From: Mycobacterium kiyosense | GTDB taxonomy: Bacteria; Actinomycetota; Actinomycetes; Mycobacteriales; Mycobacteriaceae | DNA: 64,000 nt | NCBI GenBank assembly: GCA_021654635.1 | Contig: AP025179.1 | Span: 5,456,001 to 5,520,000 of the forward strand | Direction of reading: 5' to 3' | Shown: in pieces, positions 10,331-54,732 of the stretch | Layout of the letters: each line of letters opens with the position of its first letter | Numbering within the stretch: the stretch's first letter is position 1 | The notes under the pieces: generated by a model | The model's input: only the letters and a program-made list of their open reading frames with translations | Database searches by the model: none | What the model was told of the DNA's origin: nothing | Translations under genes and position numbers: made by a program

Positions 10331-10345
10331 GGAAATCTAATTCTC
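10331..10345. promoter_or_regulatory. candidate catabolic operator, weak copy
   Basis: GGAAAT-CTA-ATTCTC: the right arm matches the GAGAAT-N3-ATTCTC palindrome found elsewhere in the window, the left arm matches at 4 of 6 positions. It lies 75 bp upstream of the DUF35/thiolase pair. Confidence 0.35.
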
Positions 10346-10382
10346 AGAGTCACGTGCCGGGCGCTCCCCGGCACCACCACTA

Positions 10383-11378
10383 CTAACCGTTCGGCGAGCT
10401 CAGTGCGGGGATCACTTCCCGCTCGAACAACTCGATACCGGAGCGGTCGTAAGCCGCCTCGGGGAAGTAGCAGATCGCGTATTCGCAGCCCAGTTCGCGC
10501 ACGTTGGTGAGCCGCTCGATGATCTGCTCGGGTGTCCCGGACGCCGAGTCCGGGATGGCACCCACCATCGACTCCGCCAACGACTCGGGCACGTAGCCGG
10601 CCAGCCGATCCTGGACACGTCGGACCCGGTCTGCAACCTCGGCCTCCGAGGCGCCGACAACGGCGGTGAAGTTTGCCGACCGGACGATGGCGTCGAAGTC
10701 GGTCCCGAGGTTGCGGCAGTGCTCGGCGAGGACCTGCGACTTGTGCGCAAACGCCTCCGGCTCCGGGGTGAAGTTGGTGAACTGCGCGTACTGCGCGGCG
10801 ATGCGCAGCGTCTTCTTCTCGCCACCGCCGGCGATCCACAACGGAATACCATTGTCCTGCAACGGCTTCGGCGCAACGATCGCACCGTCCACCTGGTAGT
10901 GCCGGCCGTCGAAGCTGACTTTGCCGTCGCGCCAGGCATCCCGCATGATCTGCACGCCCTCGTCCAGCCTGGCCAGCCGCACGCCGGCCGACGGGAAGCC
11001 GTAACCGTAAGCGCGCCACTCGTGTTCGTACCAACCGGCGCCGATACCCATCTGGACGCGGCCACCGGAGATGATGTCGGTGGTGGCCGCCACCTTGGCC
11101 AGATAGACCGGGTTGCGGTAGCTCATTGCGGTGCACATCTGGCCGAGCTTGATCCGCGAGGTGACCGCCGCATACGCCGCCATCAACGACCACGCCTCGT
11201 GGGTGGCTTCGTCGCTGGGCAGCGGCACGGTGTGGAAGTGGTCGTAGACCCACAGTGAATCCCAGGCGCCCCCGTCCGCATAGGTGGCCAGCTCGCGCAT
11301 CACCTCCCAGTGTCGCTGGGGTTCGATGCCGACGAGATCCATTCGCCAGCCTTGCGGGATGAAGAGACCGAAGCGCAT
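10383..11378 (-). CDS. LLM-class F420-dependent oxidoreductase
   Basis: 331-residue luciferase-like TIM-barrel protein using reduced F420 (or FMN) on an unknown substrate. Starts MRFGLFIPQGW; carries the LGQMCTAMSYRNPVYLAK and GGRVQMGIGAGWYEHEW blocks typical of mycobacterial LLM F420 enzymes, and PLWIAGGGEKKTLR in the second half. Monocistronic in appearance, 127 nt from the DUF35 gene start. Confidence 0.9.
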   Translation of the reverse strand: MRFGLFIPQGWRMDLVGIEPQRHWEVMRELATYADGGAWDSLWVYDHFHTVPLPSDEATHEAWSLMAAYAAVTSRIKLGQMCTAMSYRNPVYLAKVAATTDIISGGRVQMGIGAGWYEHEWRAYGYGFPSAGVRLARLDEGVQIMRDAWRDGKVSFDGRHYQVDGAIVAPKPLQDNGIPLWIAGGGEKKTLRIAAQYAQFTNFTPEPEAFAHKSQVLAEHCRNLGTDFDAIVRSANFTAVVGASEAEVADRVRRVQDRLAGYVPESLAESMVGAIPDSASGTPEQIIERLTNVRELGCEYAICYFPEAAYDRSGIELFEREVIPALSSPNG

Positions 11379-11470
11379 GGTCGAACTCTAGCCGGGGCAG
11401 CCGACGGACTCACAGCACATCGATAAGTGCGGCCAATCCAGCGGCTAATAGCTAGCCGGAATATGGGAGC

Positions 11471-11731
11471 ATGACCCCCACAGGCAGGACCGCTCGTCAA
11501 ATACGCTTTGCGCAACTGGTATTCGCCGGCGCTGCAGCCGCGGGGTTGTTGGCGCTGTCCGGTCTTGGGCTGCTCGGTCAAACTGCCCCGGCCACGTCTG
11601 CGGTCGCTTCCCCGGGCAGCTTCGCCACCGACGACAACGGCAACTCGGTCAACGACCAGGGCCAGACGTCCGGCGACATCTTCACGCAAAACGCCCAGGA
11701 CCAAAGCACCGCAGACGGGGCTGGAACGTAA
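11471..11731 (+). CDS. small exported or membrane-anchored hypothetical protein
   Basis: 86 residues. Residues about 12-45 form a basic-then-hydrophobic export signal (RFAQLVFAGAAAAGLLALSG) followed by an Ala/Ser-rich stretch and a short polar Asn/Gln/Asp-rich tail (GNSVNDQGQTSGDIFTQNAQ). No Cys lipobox. Divergent from the F420 oxidoreductase across a 92-nt gap. Function unknown. Confidence 0.6.
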   Translation: MTPTGRTARQIRFAQLVFAGAAAAGLLALSGLGLLGQTAPATSAVASPGSFATDDNGNSVNDQGQTSGDIFTQNAQDQSTADGAGT

Positions 11732-11746
11732 GTTCCGGGCCGGGCC

Positions 11747-12037
11747 TCACATCTCCAATGCGGCCAGCGCTGCCTCCACCGAACGGGAGCGCAACTCGTC
11801 GTGAGGGGCCTCGGGAAACTGCATGCAGCAGTCCTGCAGGCTGCCGAAAGCGAGCACCGCGCGAGTCGCCTGCGCCAGCGTCGGCGCCGGACCGAACACC
11901 AGGCGTCCGAGCTGCTCGCTTCAGGCCAGCACGGTGTCGATCAGCCCGAGGTCGGCCAGCATGGTCAATTCGGCCAGCACCAGCACCAGATCCGTCGCCA
12001 AGTTGAACACGAAGGTCGTGCGACTCTTCGACACCAT
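11747..12037 (-). pseudogene. gene remnant, possibly TetR-regulator C-terminus
   Basis: Reading the minus strand to the stop at 11747-11749 gives clear protein-like sequence: TDLVLVLAELTMLADLGLID, then an in-frame TGA at 11921-11923, then LVFGPAPTLAQATRAVLAFG and a terminal VEAALAALEM. All-helical hydrophobic composition fits the C-terminal half of a TetR-type regulator, but the family is a guess. No HTH-encoding 5' part exists upstream; a TAG lies just before the first ATG. Decayed, truncated copy. Confidence 0.55.
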
Positions 12038-12098
12038 GCACTACCCGGACTACCCGTTTGGCAACATAGGACCAACCCACGGACGAGAGGCGACCTGA

Positions 12099-12962
12099 AT
12101 GGAACTCAACGGTGTCGGAATCTGGAGTAGTCAACTGCGCTACGGTGATGCAGCCGAATCTGCCGAAGCCGCAGCCGAATTAGACGAATTAGGGTTCCCG
12201 GCGCTGTGGATCCCCGACGTCGGCGGACCGGTGTTCGACGCGGTGGGCCGCCTGCTGGCCGCCACCAAGCGCACCGTGATCGCCACCGGCATCCTCAACC
12301 TCTGGATGCACACCCCGCAGGACACCGCCGCGTCCTTCGCAAAGCTGACCGCCGAACACGGTGACCGATTTCTGCTGGGGATCGGCGTCAGCCACGCCCC
12401 ACTGATCGACGCCGGCGCGCCGGGGCGCTACCGCAAACCCTTGGCCGCGACGGCATCGTTCCTGGATGGACTCGATGCTGCGGACCAGCCGGTGCCCACC
12501 GATCGGCGGGTGTTGGCCGCGCTCGGCCCAAAGATGTTGACGCTGGCGGCAACCCGGGCTCGCGGCGCGCACCCCTATCTCGTCACACCGGAGCACACCG
12601 CTTCTGCCCGTGCAACTCTGGGTCAGGGCCCGCTGTTGCTGCCGGAACAGACCGCGATCTTGACCGACGACGCCGAGGAGGCGCGCCGCATCGGAACCGA
12701 TTGGCTGCGTGGCTATCTGGCGATGCCGAATTACGCCAACAATATGCTGCGCAGTGGGTTCTCCGAAGACGACGTCACCCAGATCAGCGATCGGCTGTTG
12801 AACGCGATCATCGTGTGGGGCGACGAGGCCGCAATCATGCGAAGGGTCGGCGAACATCAAGCGGCCGGCGCCGACCATGTCTGCGTTCAGATCCTCACGG
12901 CCGACCCCAAGGAGTTTCCGCGGGAGCAATGGCGTCGCCTGGCCGCGGCCATCCAGAGCTGA
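12099..12962 (+). CDS. LLM-class F420-dependent oxidoreductase (MSMEG_4141-like group)
   Basis: 287-residue luciferase-like protein. It starts MELNGVGIWSSQLRYGD and contains ELDELGFPALWIPDVGGPVFD and GDRFLLGIGVSHAPLID, as in a mycobacterial F420-enzyme subgroup. Convergent with the rhodanese gene, only 6 nt between stops. Unrelated in detail to the 10383-11378 enzyme, so this is not a recent duplication. Confidence 0.88.
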   Translation: MELNGVGIWSSQLRYGDAAESAEAAAELDELGFPALWIPDVGGPVFDAVGRLLAATKRTVIATGILNLWMHTPQDTAASFAKLTAEHGDRFLLGIGVSHAPLIDAGAPGRYRKPLAATASFLDGLDAADQPVPTDRRVLAALGPKMLTLAATRARGAHPYLVTPEHTASARATLGQGPLLLPEQTAILTDDAEEARRIGTDWLRGYLAMPNYANNMLRSGFSEDDVTQISDRLLNAIIVWGDEAAIMRRVGEHQAAGADHVCVQILTADPKEFPREQWRRLAAAIQS

Positions 12963-12968
12963 GACGTT

Positions 12969-13301
12969 TCAGCGGTCGGTCAACGGCCCGCCGGCGGCGC
13001 GCCAGTGGATCAGCCCACCACTCATGTTGACCGCCTCGAACCCGTTCTCCACGAGCAGGTTTGCCGCGCCAGCGGAGCGGAGGCCGCCGGTGCAGAAGGT
13101 GATGATGAGGCGATCCTCGGGAAGCTGAAGGCCGCGGTCCGCCAACGTCTCCAGCGGCATGTGCACGGCAGAGGGGATGTGCACCCGTTTCCACTCGAAC
13201 TCGCGGCGAACGTCGACAACGAGCGCGCCCTCGCCGACAAGCCGGACGGCGTCGACCGCAGAAACGGCCGGTGGCCGGCGCAGATAGTGACGCAGACTCA
13301 T
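12969..13301 (-). CDS. rhodanese-like sulfurtransferase
   Basis: Single rhodanese domain, 110 residues, with the DVRREFEWKRVHIPSAVHMP block and active-site Cys in ITFCTGGLRSAGAA. Likely carries persulfide sulfur in the cytoplasm. Encoded just downstream of a MarR regulator in the same orientation. A perfect inverted repeat lies 17 bp upstream of its start (13318-13358), so MarR control is plausible. Confidence 0.9.
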   Translation of the reverse strand: MSLRHYLRRPPAVSAVDAVRLVGEGALVVDVRREFEWKRVHIPSAVHMPLETLADRGLQLPEDRLIITFCTGGLRSAGAANLLVENGFEAVNMSGGLIHWRAAGGPLTDR

Positions 13302-13317
13302 GCGGCACCGGACGCGG

Positions 13318-13358
13318 CGAAACGCATACCTTCAGTTTAACTGAAGGTATGCGTTTCG
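13318..13358. promoter_or_regulatory. perfect 20-bp inverted repeat, MarR operator or terminator
   Basis: Arms CGAAACGCATACCTTCAGTT (13318-13337) and AACTGAAGGTATGCGTTTCG (13339-13358) are perfectly complementary around one T. The right arm encodes the last residues of the MarR protein and its stop codon overlaps the palindrome centre. It lies directly before the rhodanese gene. No T-tract follows on the minus strand. Operator and terminator readings are both open. Confidence 0.7.
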
Positions 13359-13765
13359 GTAAGTGCGCGTCCGAGGTACGCGCGCAGCGCCTCGGTCAAC
13401 TCGGGTTGCTGCGCGGCAAATTCGGCGTCGAGACGGTCGACCACCTCGGCGGCACGCCGCAGCAGGGCTTCGCCTGCCGGCGTCACCCGCAACGTGGACG
13501 CCGAACCCGCGTGCGCGGTCCCGTCGTCGACCAGCCCGGCGTCGACGAAGGCAGCCACCGCGGTGTGCGCGCTCTGCACGGTGATCCGCGACCGCCGGGC
13601 CAGCTCGCTGAACGAGATGCCGGGCGTGCCGCGGATATGCCCCAGTAGTCCGTACTTGCGGGTGGTCAGCCCGAGCGGTTTGAGCTGCTGCGCGAAGGCC
13701 GCCTCCCACACCCGCCCGACGGTCAACAACGCGACGGTGGGGCTGAACGGCGGTGGTTCGGCCAT
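13337..13765 (-). CDS. MarR-family transcriptional regulator
   Basis: 142-residue winged-helix regulator: [20 protein letters not shown] is the recognition helix region and [14 protein letters not shown] the wing/linker. N-terminal helices support dimerisation. It sits between fadB (downstream end) and the rhodanese gene, same strand as both, and is separated from fadB by a strong hairpin. Confidence 0.9.
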
Positions 13766-13793
13766 TCAGGCAGGCTACCGCCGGTCGCGCGAA

Positions 13794-13843
13794 CAGACGC
13801 AAAAGCCCCCGAAAGCAAGGCTTTTCGGGGGCTTTTGCGTCTG
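13794..13843 (-). terminator. strong hairpin terminator after fadB
   Basis: A 21-bp perfect stem (13794-13814 with 13823-13843, loop of 8) has a run of C/G flanked by A/T steps (AAAAGCCCCCGAAA paired with TTTCGGGGGCTTTT). It lies 7 bp after the fadB stop on the minus strand and before the MarR gene. The internal T-rich 3' arm suits an intrinsic terminator. Confidence 0.82.
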
Positions 13844-13849
13844 CTCAAC

Positions 13850-15994: not shown

Positions 15995-16011
15995 GACTTT
16001 TCGAATGCCTC

Positions 16012-17556: not shown

Positions 17557-17578
17557 GGGCGCCTTAAGCTCGACCACC

Positions 17579-24660: not shown

Positions 24661-24675
24661 GGAAATAGCATTCTC
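24661..24675. promoter_or_regulatory. candidate catabolic operator, weak copy
   Basis: GGAAAT-AGC-ATTCTC, with the same arms as the site at 10331-10345. It lies in the 242-bp gap between the fadD stop and the Mce-associated membrane gene, 190 bp upstream of the latter. I see no gene in this gap. Confidence 0.3.
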
Positions 24676-24713: not shown

Positions 24714-26159
24714 TCAGCGCAGCAGATCCTTGACGACCTTGCCGGTCGCATTCAGTGGCAGCGCGTCGAGAAACTCCACCGATCGCGGCACCTTGAATCC
24801 CGCCATGCGCTCGCGGCACCAGGCGATCAGATCCTGGGCGTCGACAGGGCTGTTGCACACCACGAATGCCTTGCCGACCTGCCCCAGTCGCTCGTCGGGC
24901 GCGCCGATCACCGCCGCCTGCGCGATGGCGGGGTGCTCGAGCAGATAGCCCTCGATCTCGGCCGGATAGGCGTTGAAGCCGCCGACGATGAACATGTCCT
25001 TCTTGCGCCCGTTGATGCGCAACCGTCCGGCGGCGTCGATGCTGCCCAGGTCGCCGGTGTGCAGCCAGCCGTCGCTGTCGATCGCCTCGGCGGTCGCTGC
25101 CGGATCGTCGAGGTAACCCTGCATGACGCCGTAGCCGCGGACCAGCACTTCCCCGTCGTCGGCGATGCGCACCTCGACACCGTCGCAGGGCAGGCCCGCT
25201 GTGGTGGCTACATCCTCGAAGGAGTCGCCGGGCCGGGACAGCGTCACGTTGCCGGCCTCGGTCAGTCCGTAACCGGTCATCAACGTCTGGAACGGCAGTT
25301 CCTCGTGGATGCGGCGGACCAGTTCGACCGGAATGTCGGCAGCGCCGGTCACGCCCGCCCGCAGCGTCGACAGCCGGGACTTGTCGCGCACCGTCAGCAG
25401 CGAGTGGTACAGCGTCGGTGGGCCCGGGAGCATCGTGATGCGTTCGCGCTCAATGAGATCCACCACGGCGTCGACGTCGAACGCCGCGACCGGAAGCATT
25501 GTGGCGCCACGCAGAAACGACGTGACGAGGCCCGCCTTCAACCCGAAGGTGTGGAAGTACGGGTTGATCATCAGGTAGCGATCACCCTCGCGCAGATCGG
25601 CGAGAGTGGCCCATTCCTCGTACATCCGCAGCGTCTGCTGGTGATTCATCATCGCGCCCTTGGGACGCCCCGTGGTTCCCGAGGTGAAGATGATGTCGCA
25701 GATGTCGGTGCCCGCCGACGCCGCTTCGAACGGCGTACCACTTTGCAGGAAGCCTGATTTCAGGTCGATGACCGGTACGCCGGGTGGCGCGGTGTACTGC
25801 TGGCCGAGGAATCCCTGCTGGACCAGGACGGCCTTGGCTCCGCTGCGGACGATGACGTCGCCGGCTTCCTCGAACTTGAACCGCGTGTTGACCGGAACGA
25901 GCACACCACCGGCGGTCAGCAGACCGAACGACGCAATGATCCACTCTGCGGAGTTGGGAGCCCATAGCGCGACCCGATCCCCCTTGCCAACCCCCAGGTC
26001 AGCGAAAGCACCTGCCGCGCAGCGTATTTGCTCGATGAGCTCGCTGAAGGTGAAGCGCAGCGGACCGTCGACGACCGCTTCCGCGTCGCCGAACCGGTCC
26101 GCTGCACTCAAGACCATCTCGGGGATGGTCCGCCAGGTCGGCCTGGCCGAGTCGGTCAC
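24714..26159 (-). CDS. AMP-dependent acyl-CoA synthetase (FadD-like)
   Basis: 481-residue ANL-superfamily ligase that activates a carboxylic acid as acyl-AMP then acyl-CoA. Motifs: P-loop-like FTSGTTGRPKGAMM (about 164-177), MTGYGLTEAGN, DGWLHTGDLG, GRKKDMFIVGGFN and the C-terminal LPLNATGKVVK with the adenylation Lys. The compact size suits FadD3/medium-chain types rather than long-chain or FAAL enzymes. ATG overlaps the amidohydrolase stop by 4 nt, so it is the second gene of that operon. Confidence 0.92.
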   Translation of the reverse strand: MTDSARPTWRTIPEMVLSAADRFGDAEAVVDGPLRFTFSELIEQIRCAAGAFADLGVGKGDRVALWAPNSAEWIIASFGLLTAGGVLVPVNTRFKFEEAGDVIVRSGAKAVLVQQGFLGQQYTAPPGVPVIDLKSGFLQSGTPFEAASAGTDICDIIFTSGTTGRPKGAMMNHQQTLRMYEEWATLADLREGDRYLMINPYFHTFGLKAGLVTSFLRGATMLPVAAFDVDAVVDLIERERITMLPGPPTLYHSLLTVRDKSRLSTLRAGVTGAADIPVELVRRIHEELPFQTLMTGYGLTEAGNVTLSRPGDSFEDVATTAGLPCDGVEVRIADDGEVLVRGYGVMQGYLDDPAATAEAIDSDGWLHTGDLGSIDAAGRLRINGRKKDMFIVGGFNAYPAEIEGYLLEHPAIAQAAVIGAPDERLGQVGKAFVVCNSPVDAQDLIAWCRERMAGFKVPRSVEFLDALPLNATGKVVKDLLR

Positions 26160-27346
26160 ACCGTGACGAGACGACCGAGGTTGCCGCCCATGATCTTCGC
26201 CTGGTCGTCAACGGATAGATGCGACAGCGCGTTGACGTAGAAGGTCGGCTCTGCCAACCCTTCCGGATGTGGCCAGTCCGAGCCGTACAGCACCTGATCC
26301 ACGCCGACCAGGTTGACCAGGTCGTCGATGCCGTCCTCGAAGAACGGGCTGACGTAGATCCGGTTCTTGACCATCTCGACCGGGTCGCTCGGGAAAGCCT
26401 CCGGTGCCTTGCGAAATACCTCGGCCAGGCCGTCGAGCAACGGCGTCATCCACTTCGAACCGGCCTCGACGATCGCGACCTTCAGCTTCGGGTGGCGGTA
26501 GAGCGCGCCGTGGATGACCCACGACCCGACCGAGTCCTGGATCGGCCGCCACTCGTTGAGGATCCCCATCGCATTGGTCTGGAACGGCAGCATCTCCTGG
26601 TCGGCACCGTCCCACTCGGAGGTGTAGCGAGAGTAACCACTGTCGCTCGAGTGCATGCCGACCAGCACGTCGTACTCGACGACGCGCTCCCAGAACGGGT
26701 CGAATTCGGGCAGCGCGAACGACCGGGGGCCGCGGAAGCCGGGGACCGGCGCCGGGCGGATCAGGATGCAGCGCGCGCCGCGCTTGACCGCCCACTCCAG
26801 CTCCTCGATCGCCTTTTCGACGATCGGCAGGGTGATGACCGGGGTGGTGAAGATCCGGTTCTGGTAATTGAAGCCCCAGACCTCGTCCAGCCACTGGTTC
26901 AGTGCGTGGACCAGCACATGGATGGCAACCGGGTCGTCGCGCAACCGCTCCTCGAGCAGGCTGGCCAACGTCGGGAACATCAGGGTTTTGTCCAGCCCCA
27001 GCTCGTTCATCACCTCCAGTCGCGGCCCAGGTTCGAAGAACGCCGGGATCGCGCGCATCGGCTCACCGAACAATTCGCGCTTGGTCTTGCCGTCCGGGTT
27101 GCCGTACTTGAAGTACTCCTCCCAGGCCCCCGGCCGGGCGACCACCTCGAAGGTCGGGTTGGGAATGTAGTTACTGATCTGGCCCCGGATGGCGATCTTG
27201 GTGCGCCCGTTGACCTGCACGTACTGGACGTAACTCCGGTACTCCTTGGGCAGGTACTTGGTCAGCGCCTCCGGCGGCTCGTAGAGATGATTGTCGGCGT
27301 CAAAGATCGGGAAGGGAACGTCCTCCCGATGCGATAACTGGCCCAT
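26156..27346 (-). CDS. amidohydrolase-2 family metal-dependent hydrolase
   Basis: 396-residue TIM-barrel protein of the amidohydrolase-related family. FDADNHLYEP near the N-terminus carries the usual metal-ligand region, VGMHSSD the middle, and LYGSDWPHPEG the conserved C-terminal Asp. Mycobacterial catabolic clusters use such enzymes as decarboxylases or hydrolases on ring-cleavage or acyl intermediates; the substrate here is unknown. First gene of a two-gene operon with fadD. A perfect GAGAAT-CAT-ATTCTC palindrome lies 23 bp upstream. Confidence 0.88.
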   Translation of the reverse strand: MGQLSHREDVPFPIFDADNHLYEPPEALTKYLPKEYRSYVQYVQVNGRTKIAIRGQISNYIPNPTFEVVARPGAWEEYFKYGNPDGKTKRELFGEPMRAIPAFFEPGPRLEVMNELGLDKTLMFPTLASLLEERLRDDPVAIHVLVHALNQWLDEVWGFNYQNRIFTTPVITLPIVEKAIEELEWAVKRGARCILIRPAPVPGFRGPRSFALPEFDPFWERVVEYDVLVGMHSSDSGYSRYTSEWDGADQEMLPFQTNAMGILNEWRPIQDSVGSWVIHGALYRHPKLKVAIVEAGSKWMTPLLDGLAEVFRKAPEAFPSDPVEMVKNRIYVSPFFEDGIDDLVNLVGVDQVLYGSDWPHPEGLAEPTFYVNALSHLSVDDQAKIMGGNLGRLVTV

Positions 27347-27368: not shown

Positions 27369-27383
27369 GAGAATCATATTCTC
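27369..27383. promoter_or_regulatory. candidate catabolic operator, perfect palindrome
   Basis: GAGAAT-CAT-ATTCTC, perfect 6-3-6 palindrome 23 bp upstream of the amidohydrolase-fadD operon. It matches the perfect site at 54718-54732 in both arms, and probably overlaps the promoter. Confidence 0.65.
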
Positions 27384-27931: not shown

Positions 27932-27968
27932 GATGATGCTATTCTCCTGAGACGAGAATGCCAATATC
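27932..27968. promoter_or_regulatory. candidate catabolic operators, paired sites
   Basis: ATTCTC at 27941-27946 and GAGAAT at 27954-27959 face outward with 7 bp between them. Read as 6-3-6 sites they give GATGAT-GCT-ATTCTC (27932-27946) and GAGAAT-GCC-AATATC (27954-27968), each with one perfect arm. The region is divergent between the lipoprotein and the enoyl-CoA hydratase gene. Confidence 0.4.
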
Positions 27969-28018: not shown

Positions 28019-28669
28019 ATGGTGGACCTGGAGTTCGACGAGCTGGACCCGGGCCTGGCGGTGCTCACCATCGACCGCCCGCATGCGCGCAATGCCATCG
28101 CGCTGCAAACCATGGACCAACTCGAGGACGCACTCGGCGCCGCGGCCGGCGCTCAAGCCCTGGTGATCAGGGGCGCCGGGGACCGCGCCTTCGTCTCCGG
28201 CGGCGACCTCAAGGAACTGAGCGCGCTGCGCACCGAGGAAGACGCCGCGGCGATGGCCAAGCGGATGCGGACCGTCTGCGATCGGATCGCCGACTTCCCC
28301 GCGCCGGTGATCGCCGCGCTGAACGGGCACGCCTTCGGCGGTGGCGCCGAGGTCGCCGTCGCCGCCGACATCCGGGTGGCCGCCGACGACGTCAAGATCG
28401 CCTTCAATCAGGTGCAGCTGGAGATCATGCCGGCCTGGGGCGGCGCCGAACGGTTGGCGACGCTGGTCGGGCGCAGCAGGGCGCTGTTGCTGGCCGGTTC
28501 CGGAACCGCGGTGGACGCCACCGAGGCGCAACGCCTCGGCCTGGTGGACGTGGTGCTGCCACGCGCCTCCTTCGACTCCTCCGACCACGGCTGGCGATCG
28601 ATCGCCAGGTCGCTGGCCCGGCGTCCGGCGGCCGAGATAAAGCGGGTAATCGGGGGGAGTTTCCGCTGA
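28019..28669 (+). CDS. enoyl-CoA hydratase/isomerase family protein
   Basis: 216-residue crotonase-fold protein, shorter than the usual 250-260, ending after the core. Oxyanion-hole segments: RAFVSGGDLKELSAL and NGHAFGGGAEVAVAADIRV. Both Glu positions of hydratases are present (GGGAE; QLEIMPAWGG). Likely hydrates an unsaturated acyl-CoA in the catabolic set. Candidate operators lie 50-90 bp upstream. Confidence 0.88.
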   Translation: MVDLEFDELDPGLAVLTIDRPHARNAIALQTMDQLEDALGAAAGAQALVIRGAGDRAFVSGGDLKELSALRTEEDAAAMAKRMRTVCDRIADFPAPVIAALNGHAFGGGAEVAVAADIRVAADDVKIAFNQVQLEIMPAWGGAERLATLVGRSRALLLAGSGTAVDATEAQRLGLVDVVLPRASFDSSDHGWRSIARSLARRPAAEIKRVIGGSFR

Positions 28670-28783: not shown

Positions 28784-29224
28784 ATGACAACCACCGCAAC
28801 GAAGCACGTGGTTTTTGGCGCTGCGATGCTGTTGGCCGCCGCGGCGACGGTGCCGGCGCTCGGCAGCGGCCGGGCGCACGCCGACGACGATCCGCCGCCC
28901 ATGCACCAGGTGGTGTACACGATTTCGGCGAAGAATCCGATTTATGCCGACATCTACTACCAGGATCAAGATCCGCGGGTGTTCTCCGACTACAGCCACA
29001 ACCCGTACACCTTCACCCCGAACGTTCAGGCCGACATCGGGCCGGGCCGGCCGTGGGTTCAGCAGGTGATGCTGTCCAATCCCGCGCAGTGGGCGATGGT
29101 CAGCGTGAGCACCGGACGGCAGTCAGCCGTCCCGCAATTTCACTGCACCGTGTCGGTCGACGGCGCGGTCGTCGTATCCAAGGACGGTGACCGGGGCGCG
29201 CTCTGTTCGCTACGGACCTGGTGA
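28784..29224 (+). CDS. secreted hypothetical, MmpS-like fold
   Basis: 146 residues with a signal peptide (FGAAMLLAAAATVPALGSG, cleaved near AHA-DD). The mature part, VVYTISAKNPIYADIYYQDQ onward, plus two Cys (FHCTVSVDG, ALCSLRTW) resembles the small beta-sandwich of MmpS-type and related mycobacterial exported proteins. GGAGGAG lies about 7 nt before the ATG. The 3' end overlaps the convergent TetR gene by about 85 nt. Confidence 0.7.
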   Translation: MTTTATKHVVFGAAMLLAAAATVPALGSGRAHADDDPPPMHQVVYTISAKNPIYADIYYQDQDPRVFSDYSHNPYTFTPNVQADIGPGRPWVQQVMLSNPAQWAMVSVSTGRQSAVPQFHCTVSVDGAVVVSKDGDRGALCSLRTW

Positions 29225-29836
29225 ACCAGCCAGGTGGGCGGCAGGTCGGTGATCGGTTGCGGTTCGCCCTCGAGTCGGCGCAGGTGCTCTTCCACGAACG
29301 CCTTGGTCTCGGCGTGACCACCCGACATGCCCAACGCCTGCTCGAGCACCAGAAACCGGGACAGGCTGGTCATCAGGACGGTCCACACCATCGGGGGCAC
29401 CTCGTCGTGTCCGTAGCGCTGCAAGGCCGCCGCCACCACCTGGGCTTGCTCTTCACGGAAACGCTCTGCGTAGTAAGCGATTTCGGCGCGCATCTCCTTG
29501 CGATGGTTCGCCAGCGCCATGAACTCCATCGAGATGCGGGTGAACGCGGGGTCGGTGCCGAATCGCCACAGCGCCCACAGCGGTTGCGGCAACTGGAGCA
29601 GCTGCGCCTGCGCCGACAGGCCCTCGTCGGCGCGCCGGCGGAACACGGCCAGGAAAAGCTCTTCCATGGTGCGGAAGTAGTAGTGGACCAGGCTGGGGCT
29701 TGAGGCCGGCCTTGTTGGCCAGGCGCCGCGACGTCACCGCGGCATAGCCCTCTTCGAGCATCAGCTGTTCGGCCGCATCGAGCAGCAGGCCGCGATTCTT
29801 CGCGTCCGGCGCCCCGATCCTGCGGGCCGAAGTCAT
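29140..29836 (-). pseudogene. TetR-family regulator (frameshifted)
   Basis: ATG at 29836 starts MTSARRIGAPDAKNRGLLLD with the HTH YAAVTSRRLANKAGLKPQ. The frame then breaks near 29691-29692, where plus-strand AGG carries one G too many. In the next frame it continues LVHYYFRTMEELFLAVF, then a long ligand-binding domain and an unusual Pro/Ser/Thr-rich tail. About 231 residues if repaired. Divergent from the P450 gene, with a candidate operator between them. Confidence 0.8.
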
Positions 29837-29949
29837 GCCGTTACCTCGTCCTCTCTGCGCTCCCCGTACGGTCCCGACGCTCTCGAAGATCCTAGCCAGT
29901 ACGTCCGGCCGCACCGGCCGTGTGACCTTGACCACGACAATACCGCCAT

Positions 29950-47181: not shown

Positions 47182-48387
47182 CTAGGTGACCGCGCCGGCG
47201 GTCTTGAGTTCGATGATGCGATCCCAGTCCAGTCCGAGTTCTTCCAGAATCTCCTCGGTCTGCTCGGCGAATCCGGGAGCCGGCCCGGTGTGCGGAGCGG
47301 TGACGTCGAACTGCACCGGGTTGGCGACCAGTTCGAGTTCGCCTGCGCGCACGATGTATTCGTTGGCCCGGATCTGTGCGTCATCGGCCGCCTGCAGCGT
47401 GTCCTGCACCGGCGCCCATGGTCCCGCGAGCGTCGCAAAGCGTTCGCTCCACTCGGCAAGCGTGCGGGTGGCGATGACTTTGGTCAAGATCTCGACCGCA
47501 TCCGCGGTGTTGGCTGCGATCGTCTCCGCGTCGGCGAACCGGGGATCGTCGATCAGGTCTTCCCGGTCGATGTGCCGGCACACGTCGGCCCAGAACTTGC
47601 CGGGCTGCATCATCACCAACGAGATGTAGCGGCCGTCGGCCGTCGGATAGACACCCACCAGGGGGTTCACCGGCGAGCCGTGGATGCCGGGCGGTGGGGA
47701 CACCATGAGCTGCTTGAGGTGGTTGGTCAACGCCACCGTGTGTCCCAGCGACCACAGCCCGCTGCCCAGCAGTGACACATCCACGATCGACGGTTCACCG
47801 CTGCGTTCGCGCTTGAGCAGTGCGGCCGCGATGCCGCCGGCGAGGTTGGTGCCCGAGATGGTGTCGCCGTAGGCCGGGCCGGGCGGATTGATCATGCCCT
47901 CATAACCCATCGGCGTGATGGTGGCCGCCGTTCCGGCCCGGCACCAGAAGGCCGTCATGTCGTAGCCGCCCTTGACCGACTCCGCACCGCGCGGGCCGAG
48001 CGCACTGCCGCGCGCGTAGATGATCTTCGGGTTCACCGCGCGGATGTCGTCGACGTCGATGCCGAACTTCTGCCGATGGTCGGGCAGGAAGCTGGTCAGG
48101 AAAACGTCGGAGCGACGGGCGAGTTCATAGAGCACTTCCTTGCCTTCGGGCACCGACATGTCCAGGCCGATGCTGCGCTTGCCGCGGTTGGCGTGCTCGA
48201 TGTTGGGATTGGGGTCACCTTCGACGCGCAGCATGCCGGTTTGGCGCAGCCCCCGCTGCGGGTCTCCGGTCACCGCGTGCTCGACCTTGATCACCTCGGC
48301 GCCCCACTCGGCGAGCACCGCACCGGCCGACGGGACGAACCCGTACATGGCGACTTCGAGAACACGGATTCCGTCGAGCGGCTTCAT
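47182..48387 (-). CDS. class III CoA-transferase (CaiB/BaiF family)
   Basis: 401 residues. N-terminal VLEVAMYGFVPSAGAVLAEW plus GAEVIKVEH, NRGKRSIGLDM, and the catalytic-Asp region GGYDMTAFW. Transfers CoA between acids without a free acyl-CoA ligase step. ATG at 48387 overlaps the aldehyde dehydrogenase stop by 4 nt, so the two form an operon. Confidence 0.92.
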   Translation of the reverse strand: MKPLDGIRVLEVAMYGFVPSAGAVLAEWGAEVIKVEHAVTGDPQRGLRQTGMLRVEGDPNPNIEHANRGKRSIGLDMSVPEGKEVLYELARRSDVFLTSFLPDHRQKFGIDVDDIRAVNPKIIYARGSALGPRGAESVKGGYDMTAFWCRAGTAATITPMGYEGMINPPGPAYGDTISGTNLAGGIAAALLKRERSGEPSIVDVSLLGSGLWSLGHTVALTNHLKQLMVSPPPGIHGSPVNPLVGVYPTADGRYISLVMMQPGKFWADVCRHIDREDLIDDPRFADAETIAANTADAVEILTKVIATRTLAEWSERFATLAGPWAPVQDTLQAADDAQIRANEYIVRAGELELVANPVQFDVTAPHTGPAPGFAEQTEEILEELGLDWDRIIELKTAGAVT

Positions 48388-49889
48388 GCCGGGACTTCTC
48401 CTTCTGCCGCTGACACGGCTGGGATGACTGGGACGGCAAATGTCTTGCGCTCCAAGAACTCTTCGAGTCCGGCGACGCCCATCTCGCGACCCACCCCCGA
48501 CTGCTTGAAACCGCCGAACGGGCTGTCGGCGCCAAAGTAGTTGCCGCCGTTGATGGAAAACGATCCGGCCCGGATTCTGCGGGCCACCGCCAGCGCACGA
48601 TCCTGGTCGCGGCTGAACACCGCTCCGGCCAGTCCGTAGATGGAGTTGTTGGCGATGCGAACGGCGTCGTCGTCGTCCTCGAACGGGATCACCACCAGCA
48701 CCGGTCCGAACACCTCGTCCTGGGCGATCTCGCTGTCCGGGTCGACGCCGGCGAGCAGGGTCGGCGCGTAGAAGTAGCCGGGGTCGAGTCTTTTGCCGCC
48801 GGTGACCAATGTGGCTCCGGCGGCGACCGCACGGGCCACCATGCCGTCGACCTTGTCCCGCTGGGCCTCGTTGATCAGCGGCCCCATGTAGGTCTTCGGG
48901 TCGGCCGGGTCGCCGTGCCGCACCTTGGCGAAGTTCTGCGCGATCAGGTCGACGATCTCGTCGTGGTGGGCACGGGGCACCAGCAGCCGGGAGGTGAGCG
49001 CGCACCCCTGCCCGGCGTGGGTGACCATGCTGAAGGCGGCGAACATGGCGGCGGCGGCGAAGTCGGCGTCGTCGAGCATGATGACCGCCGACTTTCCACC
49101 CAGCTCCAGGAAGACACGCTTCACGGTGTTGCTGGCGGCGGCCATGATCTTGCGCCCCACCGCGGTGGATCCGGTAAAGGTGATGACGTCGACGTCCGGG
49201 CTGGTGGTCAGTGCGACACCCGTCGCGGGGTCCGACGAACTCAGCACGTTGACGACGCCGGCCGGGATGTCGGTGTGGTCGGCGATCAGCTCACCGAGCG
49301 CCAGGGTGACCAGCGGGGTGTCCGGTGCGCCTTTCAAAATAACCGTGCAGCCCGCGGCAAGTGCCGGAGCCAGCTTGGCCAGCGCGAGCTGGTTCGGATA
49401 GTTGTAGGCGATGATCGCGCCGACGACGCCGGCCGCTTCCTTCTCCACCCAGCGGTGGTGCTTGATCCCCCGGGATTCCCTGATGCCGAGGTCTTCGGAG
49501 AATTCGTAGTCGCGCAGCAGGTCGGCGTAGAACCGTACGATGCCGATCGGCTCGTCGAGCTGAGCGCCGTGGGTCAGTGCGCGGGTGGCGCCGACTTCGG
49601 CGATCGTCAACTCACGCAGTTCCTCGGCGTGGTCGAGCAGCGCCTGATGCAGTTGGTCCAGGCAGCGGATCCGCAGATCGACGTCGGTGGACCACGTCGT
49701 GGTGTCGAACGCGCGCCGGGCTGCCGCGATAGCCTGTTGCGCTGCCGCGGCGCCGGCCTCAGGTGCGTATCCCAGCACTGCGCCGGTGGCCGGGTTGATC
49801 GAGGGAAAGGTCTGATCCGTGGTGACGAGTCGCCCGTCGATCAGCAGCCGGCGGGCAGCTGCGATCTCCACCGCGTCCTGCACTGACAT
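48384..49889 (-). CDS. NAD(P)-dependent aldehyde dehydrogenase
   Basis: 501 residues. Catalytic Cys in THAGQGCALTSR, general-base Glu in VFLELGGKSAV, cofactor motif FTGSTAVGRKIM. Oxidises an aldehyde, plausibly a P450/SDR-derived product, to the acid used by the CoA-transferase. ATG at 49889; a longer upstream frame has no ribosome site. Candidate operator 43 bp upstream. Confidence 0.92.
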   Translation of the reverse strand: MSVQDAVEIAAARRLLIDGRLVTTDQTFPSINPATGAVLGYAPEAGAAAAQQAIAAARRAFDTTTWSTDVDLRIRCLDQLHQALLDHAEELRELTIAEVGATRALTHGAQLDEPIGIVRFYADLLRDYEFSEDLGIRESRGIKHHRWVEKEAAGVVGAIIAYNYPNQLALAKLAPALAAGCTVILKGAPDTPLVTLALGELIADHTDIPAGVVNVLSSSDPATGVALTTSPDVDVITFTGSTAVGRKIMAAASNTVKRVFLELGGKSAVIMLDDADFAAAAMFAAFSMVTHAGQGCALTSRLLVPRAHHDEIVDLIAQNFAKVRHGDPADPKTYMGPLINEAQRDKVDGMVARAVAAGATLVTGGKRLDPGYFYAPTLLAGVDPDSEIAQDEVFGPVLVVIPFEDDDDAVRIANNSIYGLAGAVFSRDQDRALAVARRIRAGSFSINGGNYFGADSPFGGFKQSGVGREMGVAGLEEFLERKTFAVPVIPAVSAAEGEVPA

Positions 49890-49931
49890 GGCGAAACCCC
49901 CTACCCGGCCGGCTGATGTGGTGACGGTCAC

Positions 49932-49946
49932 GATAATTTCATTCTC
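49932..49946. promoter_or_regulatory. candidate catabolic operator before aldehyde dehydrogenase
   Basis: GATAAT-TTC-ATTCTC, one mismatch from the perfect GAGAAT-N3-ATTCTC palindrome, in the 302-bp divergent gap between the aldehyde dehydrogenase and SDR genes. The gap holds no gene. Confidence 0.5.
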
Positions 49947-50107
49947 ATCCCGGGCGAATCTTACATTCGGCAGACGAGAACTCAAGAAAGCCGCCGAACC
50001 GAATCCACCCTTCTGTAGGCTGTGCAATCGCTCAGCGGTCGGCCGGCGGCACCCCTTGTCGCAGGCCGGACGGGGTTTCACGGCTCACTTGCCACCAACT
50101 TCAGCAG

Positions 50108-50122
50108 GAGAGTACGATTCTC
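50108..50122. promoter_or_regulatory. candidate catabolic operator before SDR-ferredoxin-P450
   Basis: GAGAGT-ACG-ATTCTC, one mismatch from the palindrome, 70 bp upstream of the SDR start. With the 49932 site it suggests both divergent operons answer to one regulator. Confidence 0.5.
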
Positions 50123-50191
50123 ATAATTGTAAGGGAGATTCTTTGTGGGTGAGATGACTACGCCGCCACCCGGGCCCGGGGCGTCGCCGAA

Positions 50192-50893
50192 ATGAGGACT
50201 GCGGTGGTCACCGGAGGCGGGTCCGGCATCGGGCTGGCCGTCGCGCAGCGACTGCGCGCCGACGGGCGCAACGTCGCCACGATCGACCTCAAACCTTCCG
50301 ACGACGACCTCTGCTATACCGCCGACGTGACCGACCGTTCACAGGTGGACGCGGCGCTGTCGGCGATACGTGAGCGCCTGGGACCGGTCACCGTCCTGGT
50401 CAACGCCGCCGGCCTGGACGGGTTCAAGAAATTCACCAACATCTCGTTCGCGGACTGGCAGCGGGTGATCGACGTCAACCTCAACGGCGTCTTCCACATG
50501 ATTCAGGCGGTGCTGCCCGACATGCTCGAGGCCGAGTGGGGGCGGATCGTCAACATCTCCTCGTCGAGCACCCACTCGGGGACTCCCTACATGTCGCACT
50601 ACGTGGCGGCGAAGTCGGCAGTCAACGGGCTCACCAAGTCCCTGGCACTCGAGTACGGACCGAAAGGCATCACCGTCAACGCCGTGCCGCCGGGGTTCAT
50701 CGACACCCCGATGCTGCGCAACGCGGAGACCCAGGGGTTCCTCGGCGACGTCGAGCAGAACATCGCCAGGACACCGGTGCGCCGGATCGGCAAGCCCGAA
50801 GACATCGCGGCGGCATGTTCGTTTCTGACGTCCGATGAAGCCAGCTACATCACCGGTCAGATTCTGGGTGTCAACGGCGGCCGAAACACCTGA
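50192..50893 (+). CDS. short-chain dehydrogenase/reductase
   Basis: 233-residue classical SDR. Cofactor motif TGGGSGIG near the N-terminus, NAAG at about 68-71, catalytic Ser in NISSSST and Tyr/Lys in SHYVAAK. C-terminus GQILGVNGG as in FabG-like enzymes. First gene of an SDR-ferredoxin-P450 unit, 9 nt before the ferredoxin. Confidence 0.9.
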   Translation: MRTAVVTGGGSGIGLAVAQRLRADGRNVATIDLKPSDDDLCYTADVTDRSQVDAALSAIRERLGPVTVLVNAAGLDGFKKFTNISFADWQRVIDVNLNGVFHMIQAVLPDMLEAEWGRIVNISSSSTHSGTPYMSHYVAAKSAVNGLTKSLALEYGPKGITVNAVPPGFIDTPMLRNAETQGFLGDVEQNIARTPVRRIGKPEDIAAACSFLTSDEASYITGQILGVNGGRNT

Positions 50894-50902
50894 GGAGGTT
50901 GC

Positions 50903-51097
50903 GTGAAAGTCTGGGTAGATCCGGAACGCTGCCAGGGGCACACCCTGTGCGCCATGATCGCGCCGGATTCGTTCCAGCTCAGCGACATCGACGGCAGCTC
51001 GTCGGCCGTCAATGAAGTGGTCCCGGAGGATCAAGTGGACGCAGTGCGCGAGGCCGCGCAGTCCTGCCCCGAGCAAGCCATCGTGCTCAGCGACTGA
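50903..51097 (+). CDS. [3Fe-4S] ferredoxin
   Basis: 64 residues, GTG start after GAGGAGG. Cluster ligands Cys10, Cys16 and Cys55 (CQGHTLC..SCPEQAI); the missing fourth Cys indicates a 3Fe-4S cluster, as in P450-associated mycobacterial ferredoxins. Lies 20 nt before the P450 and is its likely electron donor. Confidence 0.92.
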   Translation: MKVWVDPERCQGHTLCAMIAPDSFQLSDIDGSSSAVNEVVPEDQVDAVREAAQSCPEQAIVLSD

Positions 51098-51117
51098 ACA
51101 TCAAGGGAGACCCGGCT

Positions 51118-52508
51118 TTGAGTGTGGATGACATCGTGACCGACAGCGATCGAGATCGTGATCCTGATCGCGAACGCAAGAAGAACACCTACCACTTCGA
51201 CCGGCACTCTCCGGAGTACCGCTCGCAGTTCACCCGCATCACCGAGGAGATGCACGCCAAGTGTCCGATGGCGTGGACCGACACCTATGGTGGGCACTGG
51301 GTCGCCGCGGGCAGCAACGAGGTGTTCGAGTTGGCACGGTGCCCCGCGGTCTCCAACGACCATGACATCCACGGGGGAACGCCGTGGCTACAAAGGGGAT
51401 TTCGATCCCGACCGCGCGACGGGTCAGCGTGGTGCGCGGTGGCATCCTGGAGATGGACGATCCCGAGCATCGCACCTACCGCAACGTGCTCAACCCCTAC
51501 CTGTCGCCGGCCGCGGTCAAGCGCTGGGAGCCGTTCATCGCCGAGGTAACGCGGGCGTGCCTCGACGAGAAGATCGAAGAAGGCCACATCGACTTCGTCG
51601 ACGACCTGGCCAATATCGTGCCCGCCGTGCTGACTTTGGCGATGCTGGGCATCCCGCTGAAGAAATGGAACATGTACAGCGAGCCGGTCCATGCCGCGGT
51701 GTACACCCCGGAGCACTCGCCGGACATCGAGCGAGTCACCGAGATGCACCGCAACATGGGACTCGACATGGTCAACAACATGATCGAGATCCGGGAGAAC
51801 CCTCGGCCCGGAATCGTCAACGGGCTGCTGCAGATGCGCATCGACGGCGAACCGGCGCCGGATCTGGAGATCCTGGGCAATCTCGGTCTGGTGATCGGCG
51901 GCGGTTTCGACACCACCACCGCGCTCACGGCGCACTCGCTGGAATGGCTTTCGGACCATCCCGACGAGCGGGAGCGACTGCGCCGCGAGCGCGGCGCGCT
52001 GCTCGACGCGGCTACCGAGGAATTCCTGCGTTACTTCACCCCGGCACCGGGTGACGGCCGCACGTTCTCCGACGATGTCGAAGTCAACGGCACCCAATTC
52101 AAAGAGGGTGAGCGGCTATGGATTTCGTGGGCGATGGCCAACCGCGACCCGGCCGTATTCCACGACCCGGGCGAGGTCATCTTGGACCGCAAGGGCAACC
52201 GCCACTTCAGCTTCGGCATCGGCGTGCACCGCTGCATCGGGTCCAATGTGGCTCGCACGGTGTTCAAGTCGATGCTGAACGCCGTGCTGGACCGGATGCC
52301 GGATTACCGCTGCGATCCCGAGGGAGCGGTGCACTACGAGACCATCGGCGTGATCCAGGGCATGCGCAAGCTGCCGGCCGACTTCACCCCGGGTCCCCGC
52401 GTCGGCGCCGGCCTGGACGAGACTCTCGAGAAACTGCAACGCATTTGTGAGGAGCAGGAGCTGGCCCGGCCGATCACCGAGCGTAAGGAAGCCGCGGTCA
52501 TCGACTGA
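51118..52508 (+). pseudogene. cytochrome P450 (two frameshifts)
   Basis: About 462 residues if repaired. TTG start at 51118 suits AAGGGAGA upstream; GTG at 51124 is possible. The frame breaks at G5 51373-51377 and G4 51395-51398; removing one G from each yields HDIHGERRGYKGISIPTARR in one frame. I-helix GGGFDTTTALT, ExxR-type EEFLRYF, heme Cys in FGIGVHRCIGSNVAR. Partner of the upstream ferredoxin. Confidence 0.87.
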
Positions 52509-52554
52509 GCCGGCCCCGCGCGAGCGCCACCCCCGGCGTCCCAGGCGTCGCCAC

Positions 52555-53730
52555 TCAGGCGCGCGGCAGGCCCAGCACCCGCTGGGCGATGATATTGCGC
52601 TGGATCTCCGAGGTTCCGCCGGCGATGGTGCCGGAGAAACTGCGCGCGTACCGCTCGAACCAGCTCGCGAAGTAGTGGTCCAGGTTCATCGGGGCGTACG
52701 GTCCGGTGAGCCCAGGGTGCACCAAACCGTCGCCGCCCGCGGCCGCCAACGCATGCTCGGAAATCCGCAATTCCGCTTCGGAGCCAAGCAGTTTCAGCAC
52801 CGAGATCGCCGCCGTGTCGTCCTCGCCGCGCGAGGCGCGGGCCAGCGCCACCGAGCCCAGCAGCCGCAGCGCCTGCTTGTCCATGATCGTGCTGGCGTAC
52901 TGGTCGCGGTCCAGCTCCGACACGGGATGGAAGTCGGCGAGCATGTTGTCCATCCGGTCGGCGAAACCCAGCCACATCATCGTGCGTTCATGTCCCAGTG
53001 AGCCGTTGGCGACCCGCCAGCCCTGGTTGAGCTCACCGACCAGGTTCTCCGCCGGCACCTTGACGTCGGTGAAGAACACCTCGTTGAAGTCCAGGTCGTC
53101 GGCGGCGCACACCGATGGGAAGGGCCGCCGCACCACACCCTCGGTGTCGGTCGGTATCACCAAGGCGCTGATGCCCTTGTGTTTCGGCGCGTCCGGGTCG
53201 GTGCGGACGAACGTCAGCAGCACGTCGGCGTCGTGCGCGCCGGAGGTCCACACCTTCTGCCCGTTGACCACGAAGTGATCACCCTGCAGCTCCGCACGAG
53301 TGCGCAGCGAGGCCAGGTCCGAACCCGCGCTGGGCTCGCTCATCCCCAGCGAAGCGGTGATTTCGGCGCGCAGGATGGGCACCGCCCAGCGTCGCTTCTG
53401 CTCGTCGCTGCCGAACGAGATCAGCGATGCCGCAACAATATTCACACCCTGCGGGTTGAGGCTGTGGTAGATCCGGCGCCGGCACAGTTCTTCCAGGTAC
53501 ACGTACTGCTGCAGCACGGTCGCGTTGCGGCCGCCGAACTCCGGTGGCTGGGTCGGCAGCAGCCAGCCGTTGTCGAAAAGCAGCCGCTGCCAACGCCGGG
53601 CCCAATCCGGCATATGGGAGACGGAGCGGGGCCGCTCGATGCATTCGCTTGCCGGAGGCAGGTTTTCGTCGAGAAAGGCCGAGAACTGCGCCCGGAACTC
53701 CTCGACGTCGGCATCAAAAGTCAGCTGCAC
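52555..53730 (-). CDS. acyl-CoA dehydrogenase (pair, subunit 1)
   Basis: 391 residues, FadE family. SLGMSEPSAGSDLASL (FAD/substrate), GQKVWTSGAHDAD, and the C-terminal FAD motif GGTSEIQRNIIAQRVLG. Overlaps the second, divergent-sequence acyl-CoA dehydrogenase gene by 17 nt. Such tandem pairs form alpha2beta2 heterotetramers in mycobacterial steroid-type catabolism. Confidence 0.92.
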   Translation of the reverse strand: MQLTFDADVEEFRAQFSAFLDENLPPASECIERPRSVSHMPDWARRWQRLLFDNGWLLPTQPPEFGGRNATVLQQYVYLEELCRRRIYHSLNPQGVNIVAASLISFGSDEQKRRWAVPILRAEITASLGMSEPSAGSDLASLRTRAELQGDHFVVNGQKVWTSGAHDADVLLTFVRTDPDAPKHKGISALVIPTDTEGVVRRPFPSVCAADDLDFNEVFFTDVKVPAENLVGELNQGWRVANGSLGHERTMMWLGFADRMDNMLADFHPVSELDRDQYASTIMDKQALRLLGSVALARASRGEDDTAAISVLKLLGSEAELRISEHALAAAGGDGLVHPGLTGPYAPMNLDHYFASWFERYARSFSGTIAGGTSEIQRNIIAQRVLGLPRA

Positions 53731-54712
53731 GGTACTCCTCGGCGATCAGGGCGCGGTGCTCTGCCGCGCCGCCGAGCATCAGCTCTCCCGCCTTCGCGCG
53801 CTTGAGCGCGAACTGCACGTCGTTCTCCCAGGTGAATCCCATGGCGCCGTGCAGTTGCAGTCCGTGCCGGAATACCAGCGACTGGCATTCCCCGGCCGAC
53901 GCCTTGGCCATCGCCGCGGCCAGCCGTCGGCGGGGGTCGTCGGCCGAGATCGTCAGTGCCGCATAGTAGGACAACGCGCGGGCTCGCTGCACGGCGACGT
54001 GCATATCGGCGGCTTTGTGCTGCACTGCCTGGAATGAGCCGATGGGAACCCCGAATTGGTGGCGGCTGCGGACATGTTCGAGCACCATGTCCAGGATGCG
54101 TTGGCACGCACCGACCATCGTGATCGCCATGCCGGTCAGCGCGATATGACGGGCTCGCTCGCGGTCGACGACCAACCGGTCGCTGTCCGGCACCCGAATC
54201 CCGCTGAACGACAGATCGGCGACATGCAGCACCGGGTCGAACACCGATTCGCGCCGCGCCGACAATTGGCCGGCGTCGACGGCGAACACACCGGCCTCGG
54301 TCACCACCGCCACCCGCTCGACCCGGTCACCGTCCAGCACATGTCGCGCGGTGCCGTCCAGTACCCACCCGTCGGCGTCCCGGCGCGCCGACACCCCGCT
54401 GTACACGGCGGTGCCGGACTGGTTCGGATCGAACCGGTCCCCGGCCAATGGCGCGAACTGGGTCATGGTCGCCAGGAACGGGGTCGGGTCGGCGGCGTGG
54501 CCGAGCTGCTCGAGCACGATCGCCAATTCCACCGCACTGGCCGGGTCGTTGAGCTCCGTCCAGCCCAGTTCCCGGTAGAGCTTCCACAGCGGTTCGGTAT
54601 CCGCGCCGTCCTCGGCGACACTGCGCACCAGGGACGGCGGACACTGCTTGGTGACGACGTCACGCACGGTGTCCTGCCACAGCCGCTGGTCGGCATCAAA
54701 CTCCAAGAGCAT
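53714..54712 (-). CDS. acyl-CoA dehydrogenase (pair, subunit 2)
   Basis: 332 residues, diverged FadE. The FAD-binding Thr/Ser loop is degenerate, but RHQFGVPIGSFQAVQHKAAD, LHGAMGFTWENDVQF and the helical core are clear. Upstream partner of the 52555-53730 gene, with overlap. A perfect GAGAAT-ATC-ATTCTC palindrome begins 6 bp upstream of the start codon. Confidence 0.9.
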   Translation of the reverse strand: MLLEFDADQRLWQDTVRDVVTKQCPPSLVRSVAEDGADTEPLWKLYRELGWTELNDPASAVELAIVLEQLGHAADPTPFLATMTQFAPLAGDRFDPNQSGTAVYSGVSARRDADGWVLDGTARHVLDGDRVERVAVVTEAGVFAVDAGQLSARRESVFDPVLHVADLSFSGIRVPDSDRLVVDRERARHIALTGMAITMVGACQRILDMVLEHVRSRHQFGVPIGSFQAVQHKAADMHVAVQRARALSYYAALTISADDPRRRLAAAMAKASAGECQSLVFRHGLQLHGAMGFTWENDVQFALKRAKAGELMLGGAAEHRALIAEEYRAADF

Positions 54713-54717
54713 CCACG

Positions 54718-54732
54718 GAGAATATCATTCTC
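54718..54732. promoter_or_regulatory. candidate catabolic operator, perfect palindrome
   Basis: GAGAAT-ATC-ATTCTC, perfect 6-3-6, in the 86-bp divergent gap between the acyl-CoA dehydrogenase pair and the SnoaL-epimerase operon, so one site could control both. Confidence 0.65.

Follow-up and report, generated by a model that had tools for sequence, protein, structure and literature searches.

A 15-letter palindrome, GAGAAT-N3-ATTCTC, precedes scattered genes for breakdown enzymes in Mycobacterium kiyosense and in many of its relatives, and it very probably serves a single TetR-family regulator as operator. The gene of this regulator lies at chromosome positions 5,554,349-5,555,002. The palindrome came from a stretch of 64,000 nucleotides, here called the window, which spans bases 5,456,001-5,520,000 of the single-contig 6.35-Mb M. 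kiyosense genome. A preliminary description of the window had proposed it as the shared operator of a catabolic regulon. This proposal is backed by avoidance of coding DNA, by conserved promoters, and by the types of enzyme genes behind the copies, namely acyl coenzyme A (acyl-CoA), P450, Rieske, amidohydrolase, short-chain dehydrogenase/reductase (SDR), and thiolase genes.

Copies of the palindrome and the genes behind them

All sites named in the preliminary description were recovered. The two copies described as perfect (27369 and 54718) have 0 mismatches, the two described as one-mismatch copies (49932 and 50108) have 1 each, the half-perfect pair at 27932-27968 consists of copies starting at 27932 and 27954 with 2 mismatches each, and the weaker copies at 10331 and 24661 also have 2 each. 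The copies were likewise said to be intergenic, and all 8 window copies at up to 2 mismatches are, with intergenic or coding status taken throughout from our own gene calls. By motif match, the copies are as follows.

10331..10345, no strand: weak copy of the putative operator, 2 mismatches, before the ChsH2-like/thiolase pair
24661..24675, no strand: weak copy, 2 mismatches, 3' of fadD and before a Mce-associated pair
27369..27383, no strand: perfect copy before the amidohydrolase-fadD operon
27932..27968: two degenerate copies (27932 and 27954, 22 bases apart) before the enoyl-CoA hydratase gene
49932..49946, no strand: 1-mismatch copy before the aldehyde dehydrogenase-CoA-transferase genes
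50108..50122, no strand: 1-mismatch copy before the SDR-ferredoxin-P450 genes
54718..54732: perfect copy in the gap that separates the acyl-CoA dehydrogenase pair from the divergent SnoaL-epimerase genes

The putative targets in the window, with their Pfam matches, are these.

8684..10256, minus strand: thiolase-like and ChsH2-like (DUF35) genes (Thiolase_C_1, OB_ChsH2_C)
24714..27346, minus strand: fadD-type ligase and amidohydrolase, putative operon (AMP-binding, Amidohydro_2)
28019..28669, plus strand: enoyl-CoA hydratase (ECH_1)
47182..49889, minus strand: CoA-transferase III and aldehyde dehydrogenase, putative operon (CoA_transf_3, Aldedh)
50204..52508, plus strand: SDR, ferredoxin, and P450, putative operon, starts approximate (adh_short_C2, Fer4_15, p450)
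52555..54712, minus strand: acyl-CoA dehydrogenase pair, putative operon (Acyl-CoA_dh families)
54799..57382, plus strand: SnoaL-like gene and two epimerase/SDR-type genes, putative operon (SnoaL_4, Epimerase)

The ChsH2-like gene starts 75 bases after copy 10331, which also closely follows the 3' end of a luciferase-like gene, and copy 24661 lies 286 bases before the Mce-associated pair. Four of the window genes were checked for presence elsewhere and occur in 61, 60, 58, and 60 of 78 Mycobacterium genomes, respectively.

A genome-wide scan, one of the checks named in the preliminary description, gave 8 perfect copies in the 6.35-Mb chromosome; the count rises to 15 if 1 mismatch is allowed and to 80 if 2 are allowed. 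Twelve of the 15 are intergenic, and three fall inside gene calls (3971532, 4457149, and a perfect copy at 1681820). Further own-genome sites lie before or between a second amidohydrolase and a CMD-Rieske operon; a group of TetR, dehydrogenase, and P450 genes; a MeaB-like gene and a hydrolase; another fadD with a ferredoxin; an epimerase and an acyltransferase; and an APH-type kinase with a phosphatase.

The variant GGAAAT-N3-ATTCTC has three copies (window 10331 and 24661; chromosome 1,968,142), all intergenic. At the spot orthologous to the last of these, in a fadD/CoA-transferase gap, genome G100 has a perfect copy. In seven of the eight perfect own-genome sites the first spacer base is A or the third is T, a possible overlap with a -10-like TATTCT; the TATTCT word in the M. 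kiyosense amidohydrolase promoter is not directed at the gene.

Spacing, half-sites, and placement

The spacing of the two half-sites is strict. With the half-sites fixed and the gap allowed to vary from 0 to 20, the chromosome holds nine places, eight of them with a gap of 3. Spacing and permutation controls were run in the 364 kb around the window, where the palindrome with spacing 3 has 6 perfect copies, 10 if 1 mismatch is allowed, and 20 if 2 are allowed. None of the remaining 15 spacings between 0 and 15 gave a perfect copy, and their maximum was 1 at up to 1 mismatch and 6 at up to 2. Likewise, 59 palindromes with permuted half-sites gave no perfect copy. With 1 mismatch allowed they averaged 0.17 copies (maximum 3), and with 2 allowed they averaged 2.61, where the maximum was 17, with 1 of these 17 intergenic. 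On the chromosome, the pattern read backward has 7 copies at up to 2 mismatches versus 80 for the palindrome itself, a lenient control because the backward pattern contains stop-like words.

Placement shows a bias as well. Eighteen of the 20 copies in the 364 kb are intergenic, in a region of which 11% is intergenic (binomial p ~8e-16), versus at most 4 intergenic copies for any permuted palindrome. Equal frequency in coding DNA, which the preliminary description had named as evidence against its own proposal, is thus not what we observe.

Conservation in orthologous promoters

The copies are conserved before orthologous genes, in counts that include M. kiyosense itself. Promoters of the amidohydrolase gene (26156) carry a perfect copy in 28 of 30 cases and a 1-mismatch copy in the other 2, at a near-constant distance from the gene, and those of the acyl-CoA dehydrogenase gene (53714) carry a perfect copy in 29 of 30 and a 1-mismatch copy in the remaining one; conservation across related species had been asked for in the preliminary description. 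At the SDR loci (50204), for which sites 50108 and 49932 are pooled, 23 of 30 have a copy with no more than 1 mismatch within 350 bases of the SDR gene, and 29 of 30 have one if 2 mismatches are allowed. No copy at up to 1 mismatch was found within the aligned coding sequences of these 90 amidohydrolase, dehydrogenase, and SDR loci.

The degenerate copies are kept to different degrees. At least one copy precedes the enoyl-CoA hydratase gene in all 17 loci with a gene match, and both copies do so in 13 of these; no gene match was obtained in the remaining 13 of the 30 loci. In 13 of the 17 loci the pair keeps its odd half-sites and its 22-base distance, perhaps forming a cooperative double site. 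Copy 10331 is the weakest: of 30 orthologues of the ChsH2-like gene, 8 are preceded by a copy with 2 mismatches or fewer. For copy 24661, a 1-mismatch copy lies 3' of the fadD orthologue in genomes G034 and G150.

Within the sites, conservation is concentrated in the half-sites. Across four promoter sets the major base has a mean frequency of 0.97-1.00 at half-site positions, compared with 0.51-0.93 for the spacer and 0.45-0.84 for the flanking bases, and 229 distinct sites contain 42 different spacers. The promoter set of the TetR gene is less telling taken alone because its spacer (0.93) and flanks (0.84) are also conserved.

We also surveyed the surroundings of sites in seven relatives and in genomes G026, G062, and G044, where 60 sites have no more than 1 mismatch; 53 of them are intergenic and 7 lie within gene calls. 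Among the seven relatives, a site is present at the amidohydrolase gene in 7, at the TetR gene in 7, at the 53714 dehydrogenase gene in 6, and at the fadD/ferredoxin pair in 5. In three relatives a perfect copy stands approximately 220-240 bases before a presumably korA-like gene and after a PfkB-like gene (L255:3023 in G034, L261:3047 in G020, and L156:5364 in G062).

A flanked TetR gene as candidate regulator

The candidate regulator gene (5,554,349-5,555,002) lies outside the window, approximately 34 kb beyond its right end, and encodes 217 residues with an N-terminal helix-turn-helix (HTH) domain (PF00440, 31.7 bits versus a gathering cut-off of 24). It is flanked by the palindrome on both sides: a perfect site separates it from a divergent acyl-CoA dehydrogenase gene, and a 1-mismatch site from the following P450 gene. 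Among the best 80 of 404 Mycobacterium loci found, the upstream site is perfect in 79 and the downstream site is present at up to 1 mismatch in 70. A further set of 20 TetR loci, 10 of them from other genera, has the upstream site at up to 1 mismatch in every case. The upstream exception is M. tilburgii, whose copy has 3 mismatches and whose P450 and dehydrogenase genes match only piecewise. At locus L154 of genome G088 the TetR gene is open, the operator has 3 mismatches, and the neighboring P450 and dehydrogenase genes match in pieces, so operator and targets seem to decay together there.

TetR gene and palindrome also occur together across genomes. With TetR presence defined as a match at an E value of up to 1e-40, 163 of 198 Mycobacterium genomes have the TetR gene, 163 have an exact copy of the motif, and 160 have both; an exact copy is thus found in 160 of 163 TetR-bearing versus 3 of 35 TetR-less genomes. 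Genomes G055, G088, and G177 have the TetR gene only, G044, G069, and G147 the motif only, and 32 have neither. Of the motif-only genomes, G069 has a contig that ends within the TetR gene, G147 has one that ends approximately 80 bases past the site that lies beside the expected dehydrogenase neighbor, and G044 carries its sole copy away from the genes tested. In a sample of the family, an exact copy is present in 32 of 33 TetR-bearing versus 9 of 118 TetR-less genomes.

Several observations weigh against assigning the palindrome to this regulator. Since the TetR gene, its sites, and the targets travel as an island, their co-occurrence does not single out this TetR or prove binding, and the Fisher p value of ~5e-30 for the 198 genomes ignores shared ancestry. 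The nine TetR-less genomes of the family sample have one copy each, and G055 and G177 have a TetR match without an exact copy. Genome G026 has a TetR 85% identical to ours without a nearby site, and its only perfect copy precedes an APH/phosphatase pair. The structure model of the TetR is mediocre (mean predicted local distance difference test score 74), with residues 62-71, in the DNA-binding part, below 50. Finally, the perfect copy at chromosome 1,681,820 (L031) lies inside a gene call. That gene call is low-scoring, in a region that resembles a degraded synthetase, and is an exception to promoter placement.

Other candidate regulators of the island

The palindrome might be a real operator and yet belong to another regulator of the island, either the TetR encoded at 5,542,361 or the gene at 29140, in which case the flanked TetR would be merely a target; we regard this as unlikely. 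The second TetR (5,542,361) is present in 152 of 198 Mycobacterium genomes, all 152 of which carry the motif, and the distance from this gene to a 2-mismatch copy is less than 0.7 kb. Against it stand 11 motif-bearing genomes that lack this gene, among them G041 (6 copies) and G102 (8 copies); nine of the 11 have the flanked TetR. In addition, the promoter region of the second TetR, as delimited by our gene calls, holds no copy at up to 2 mismatches. Given its looser co-occurrence with the motif, we rejected it as the regulator.

The gene at 29140 had been the first candidate of the preliminary description, and it proved a poor one.

29140..29667, minus strand: TetR-like remainder, no HTH in the same frame, judged not to be the regulator

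As assembled, the gene has its HTH-like part in one frame and the remainder in another, which could reflect a real break or an assembly error. A search against Pfam and NCBIfam gave no match, and the nearest copy of the palindrome is more than 1 kb away. We rejected it because its parts are in different frames and it has no domain match. The TetR-like gene, at 29140-29900, adjoins a CYP150A6-like P450 gene.

Comparison with published motifs

A second alternative, which we consider slightly less likely still, is that the palindrome is the published motif X of Mycobacterium sp. VKM Ac-1817D, linked to phytosterol-induced genes, and hence already known (PMC6593523). Motif X is a palindromic, predicted TetR operator before P450, SDR, aldehyde dehydrogenase, and TetR genes, is assigned to the Rv0767c orthologue G155_05115, and belongs to operons of which 12 of 14 have genes upregulated more than 3-fold by phytosterol (PMC6593523). 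The likely counterpart gene in M. kiyosense, however, has the palindrome TGGACANNTGTCCA and no GAGAAT copy. We take this counterpart, from gene order, to be the gene at 5,707,052-5,707,639, a gene separate from the flanked TetR that stands before P450 genes. Upstream of 5,707,052 we find TGGACATGTGTCCA and a near copy, and the best match to the GAGAAT palindrome there has 4 mismatches. Because the counterpart promoter has no GAGAAT palindrome at fewer than 4 mismatches, the two motifs are probably different, and we keep a small chance for their identity.

The palindrome TGGACANNTGTCCA occurs at chromosome 5,706,812 and 5,706,970 (L030:6812 and L030:6970), once perfectly and once with 1 mismatch, upstream of a further TetR gene that is followed by P450 genes. 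The 364 kb contain no other copy of it with 1 mismatch or fewer, and it is possibly motif X itself.

A search of open-licence literature for the exact consensus and six exact spellings did not find the motif in print; motif X was the closest published counterpart. The sequences GAGAATTT and GAGAATTC in the part of PMC4757040 consulted are short predicted Rv0081 sites and apparently unrelated. The consulted part of PMC4482099 holds a motif table for regulators by M. tuberculosis gene number, and that of PMC3388012 has no occurrence of GAGAA or ATTCT.

That the palindrome is a chance likeness, or an unrelated conserved element without regulatory role, can practically be ruled out: although the window count by itself stands out only modestly (with 3 mismatches allowed, 20 copies, approximately twice the shuffled mean of 9.88, with 20 reached in 1 of 100 shuffles), the spacing and permutation controls, the intergenic bias, the conservation of promoters without copies in the aligned coding sequences, and half-sites far better kept than spacers all argue against it.

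Relation to known regulators

With the flanked TetR as the probable regulator, the system resembles those of KstR and KstR2, in which a TetR-type regulator acts through a palindromic operator on its own gene and on scattered operons for lipid breakdown that include acyl-CoA dehydrogenase, P450, and thiolase genes. The candidate TetR is nevertheless distant from both (KstR, PDB 5cw8, E value 0.005; KstR2, PDB 4w1u, E value 0.016), and with similarity at the level of the HTH only we rejected orthology. GAGAAT-N3-ATTCTC also appears to differ from the KstR and KstR2 consensus sequences.

The best PDB sequence matches of the candidate TetR are FadR entries of Bacillus halodurans (5gpa and 5gp9, E value ~5e-8), from the FadR-type TetR regulators of fatty acid degradation in Bacillus and Thermus, and several FadR entries are among the Foldseek matches of the TetR model. 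However, the identity is approximately 20%, the model is mediocre, and the curated FadR model NF053878 scores 26.2 bits versus a cut-off of 200.

Proposed regulon and its possible substrate

In the mechanism we propose, a TetR dimer would read the two half-sites and would repress, rather than activate, its own gene and the promoters of dispersed catabolic operons. The regulon would comprise P450s, a Rieske oxygenase, amidohydrolases, acyl-CoA ligases, acyl-CoA dehydrogenase pairs, thiolase/ChsH2, and SDRs. The repressor would let go when an intermediate of the pathway, perhaps an acyl-CoA, binds to it. A CoA thioester as ligand is weakly suggested by the similarity to FadR and by the example of KstR2, which responds to an effector of this type (PMC6593523).

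The system would add a new case to the catabolic regulons under TetR-family control. We give about even weight to the broader view that it is a further large lipid-catabolic regulon beside those of KstR and KstR2, in which the TetR senses a CoA-bound intermediate and switches on a dispersed pathway degrading a ring-containing isoprenoid or sterol-like compound, with regulator, operators, and enzymes kept or lost together in Mycobacterium and several other genera. The enzymes of this dispersed set (P450s, a Rieske oxygenase, amidohydrolases, and acyl-CoA dehydrogenase pairs) have few functional assignments, and they now gain an operator and a probable regulator. A short and strict operator gives a list of genes expected in one pathway, and the ligand of the regulator would point to its substrate.

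The substrate would be a hydrophobic compound that is lipid-, sterol-, or terpenoid-like. A terpenoid- or sterol-like compound is plausible because 4-hydroxy-beta-ionone is the product of M. marinum CYP150A5 (PMC6237146) and CYP150A6 is a close match for the window P450 at 30051 (PDB 6dcd, 835 bits). CYP150A5 belongs, with CYP188A3 and CYP190A3, to the M. marinum P450-ferredoxin island MMAR_4716-4736, in which no M. tuberculosis counterpart is given for MMAR_4716 or MMAR_4717 (PMC6237146). That source differs in treating the enzymes; the word TetR is absent from its text. The window ferredoxin at 50903 has a CXXHXXC motif and in this resembles M. marinum Fdx5 and Fdx8 (PMC6237146).

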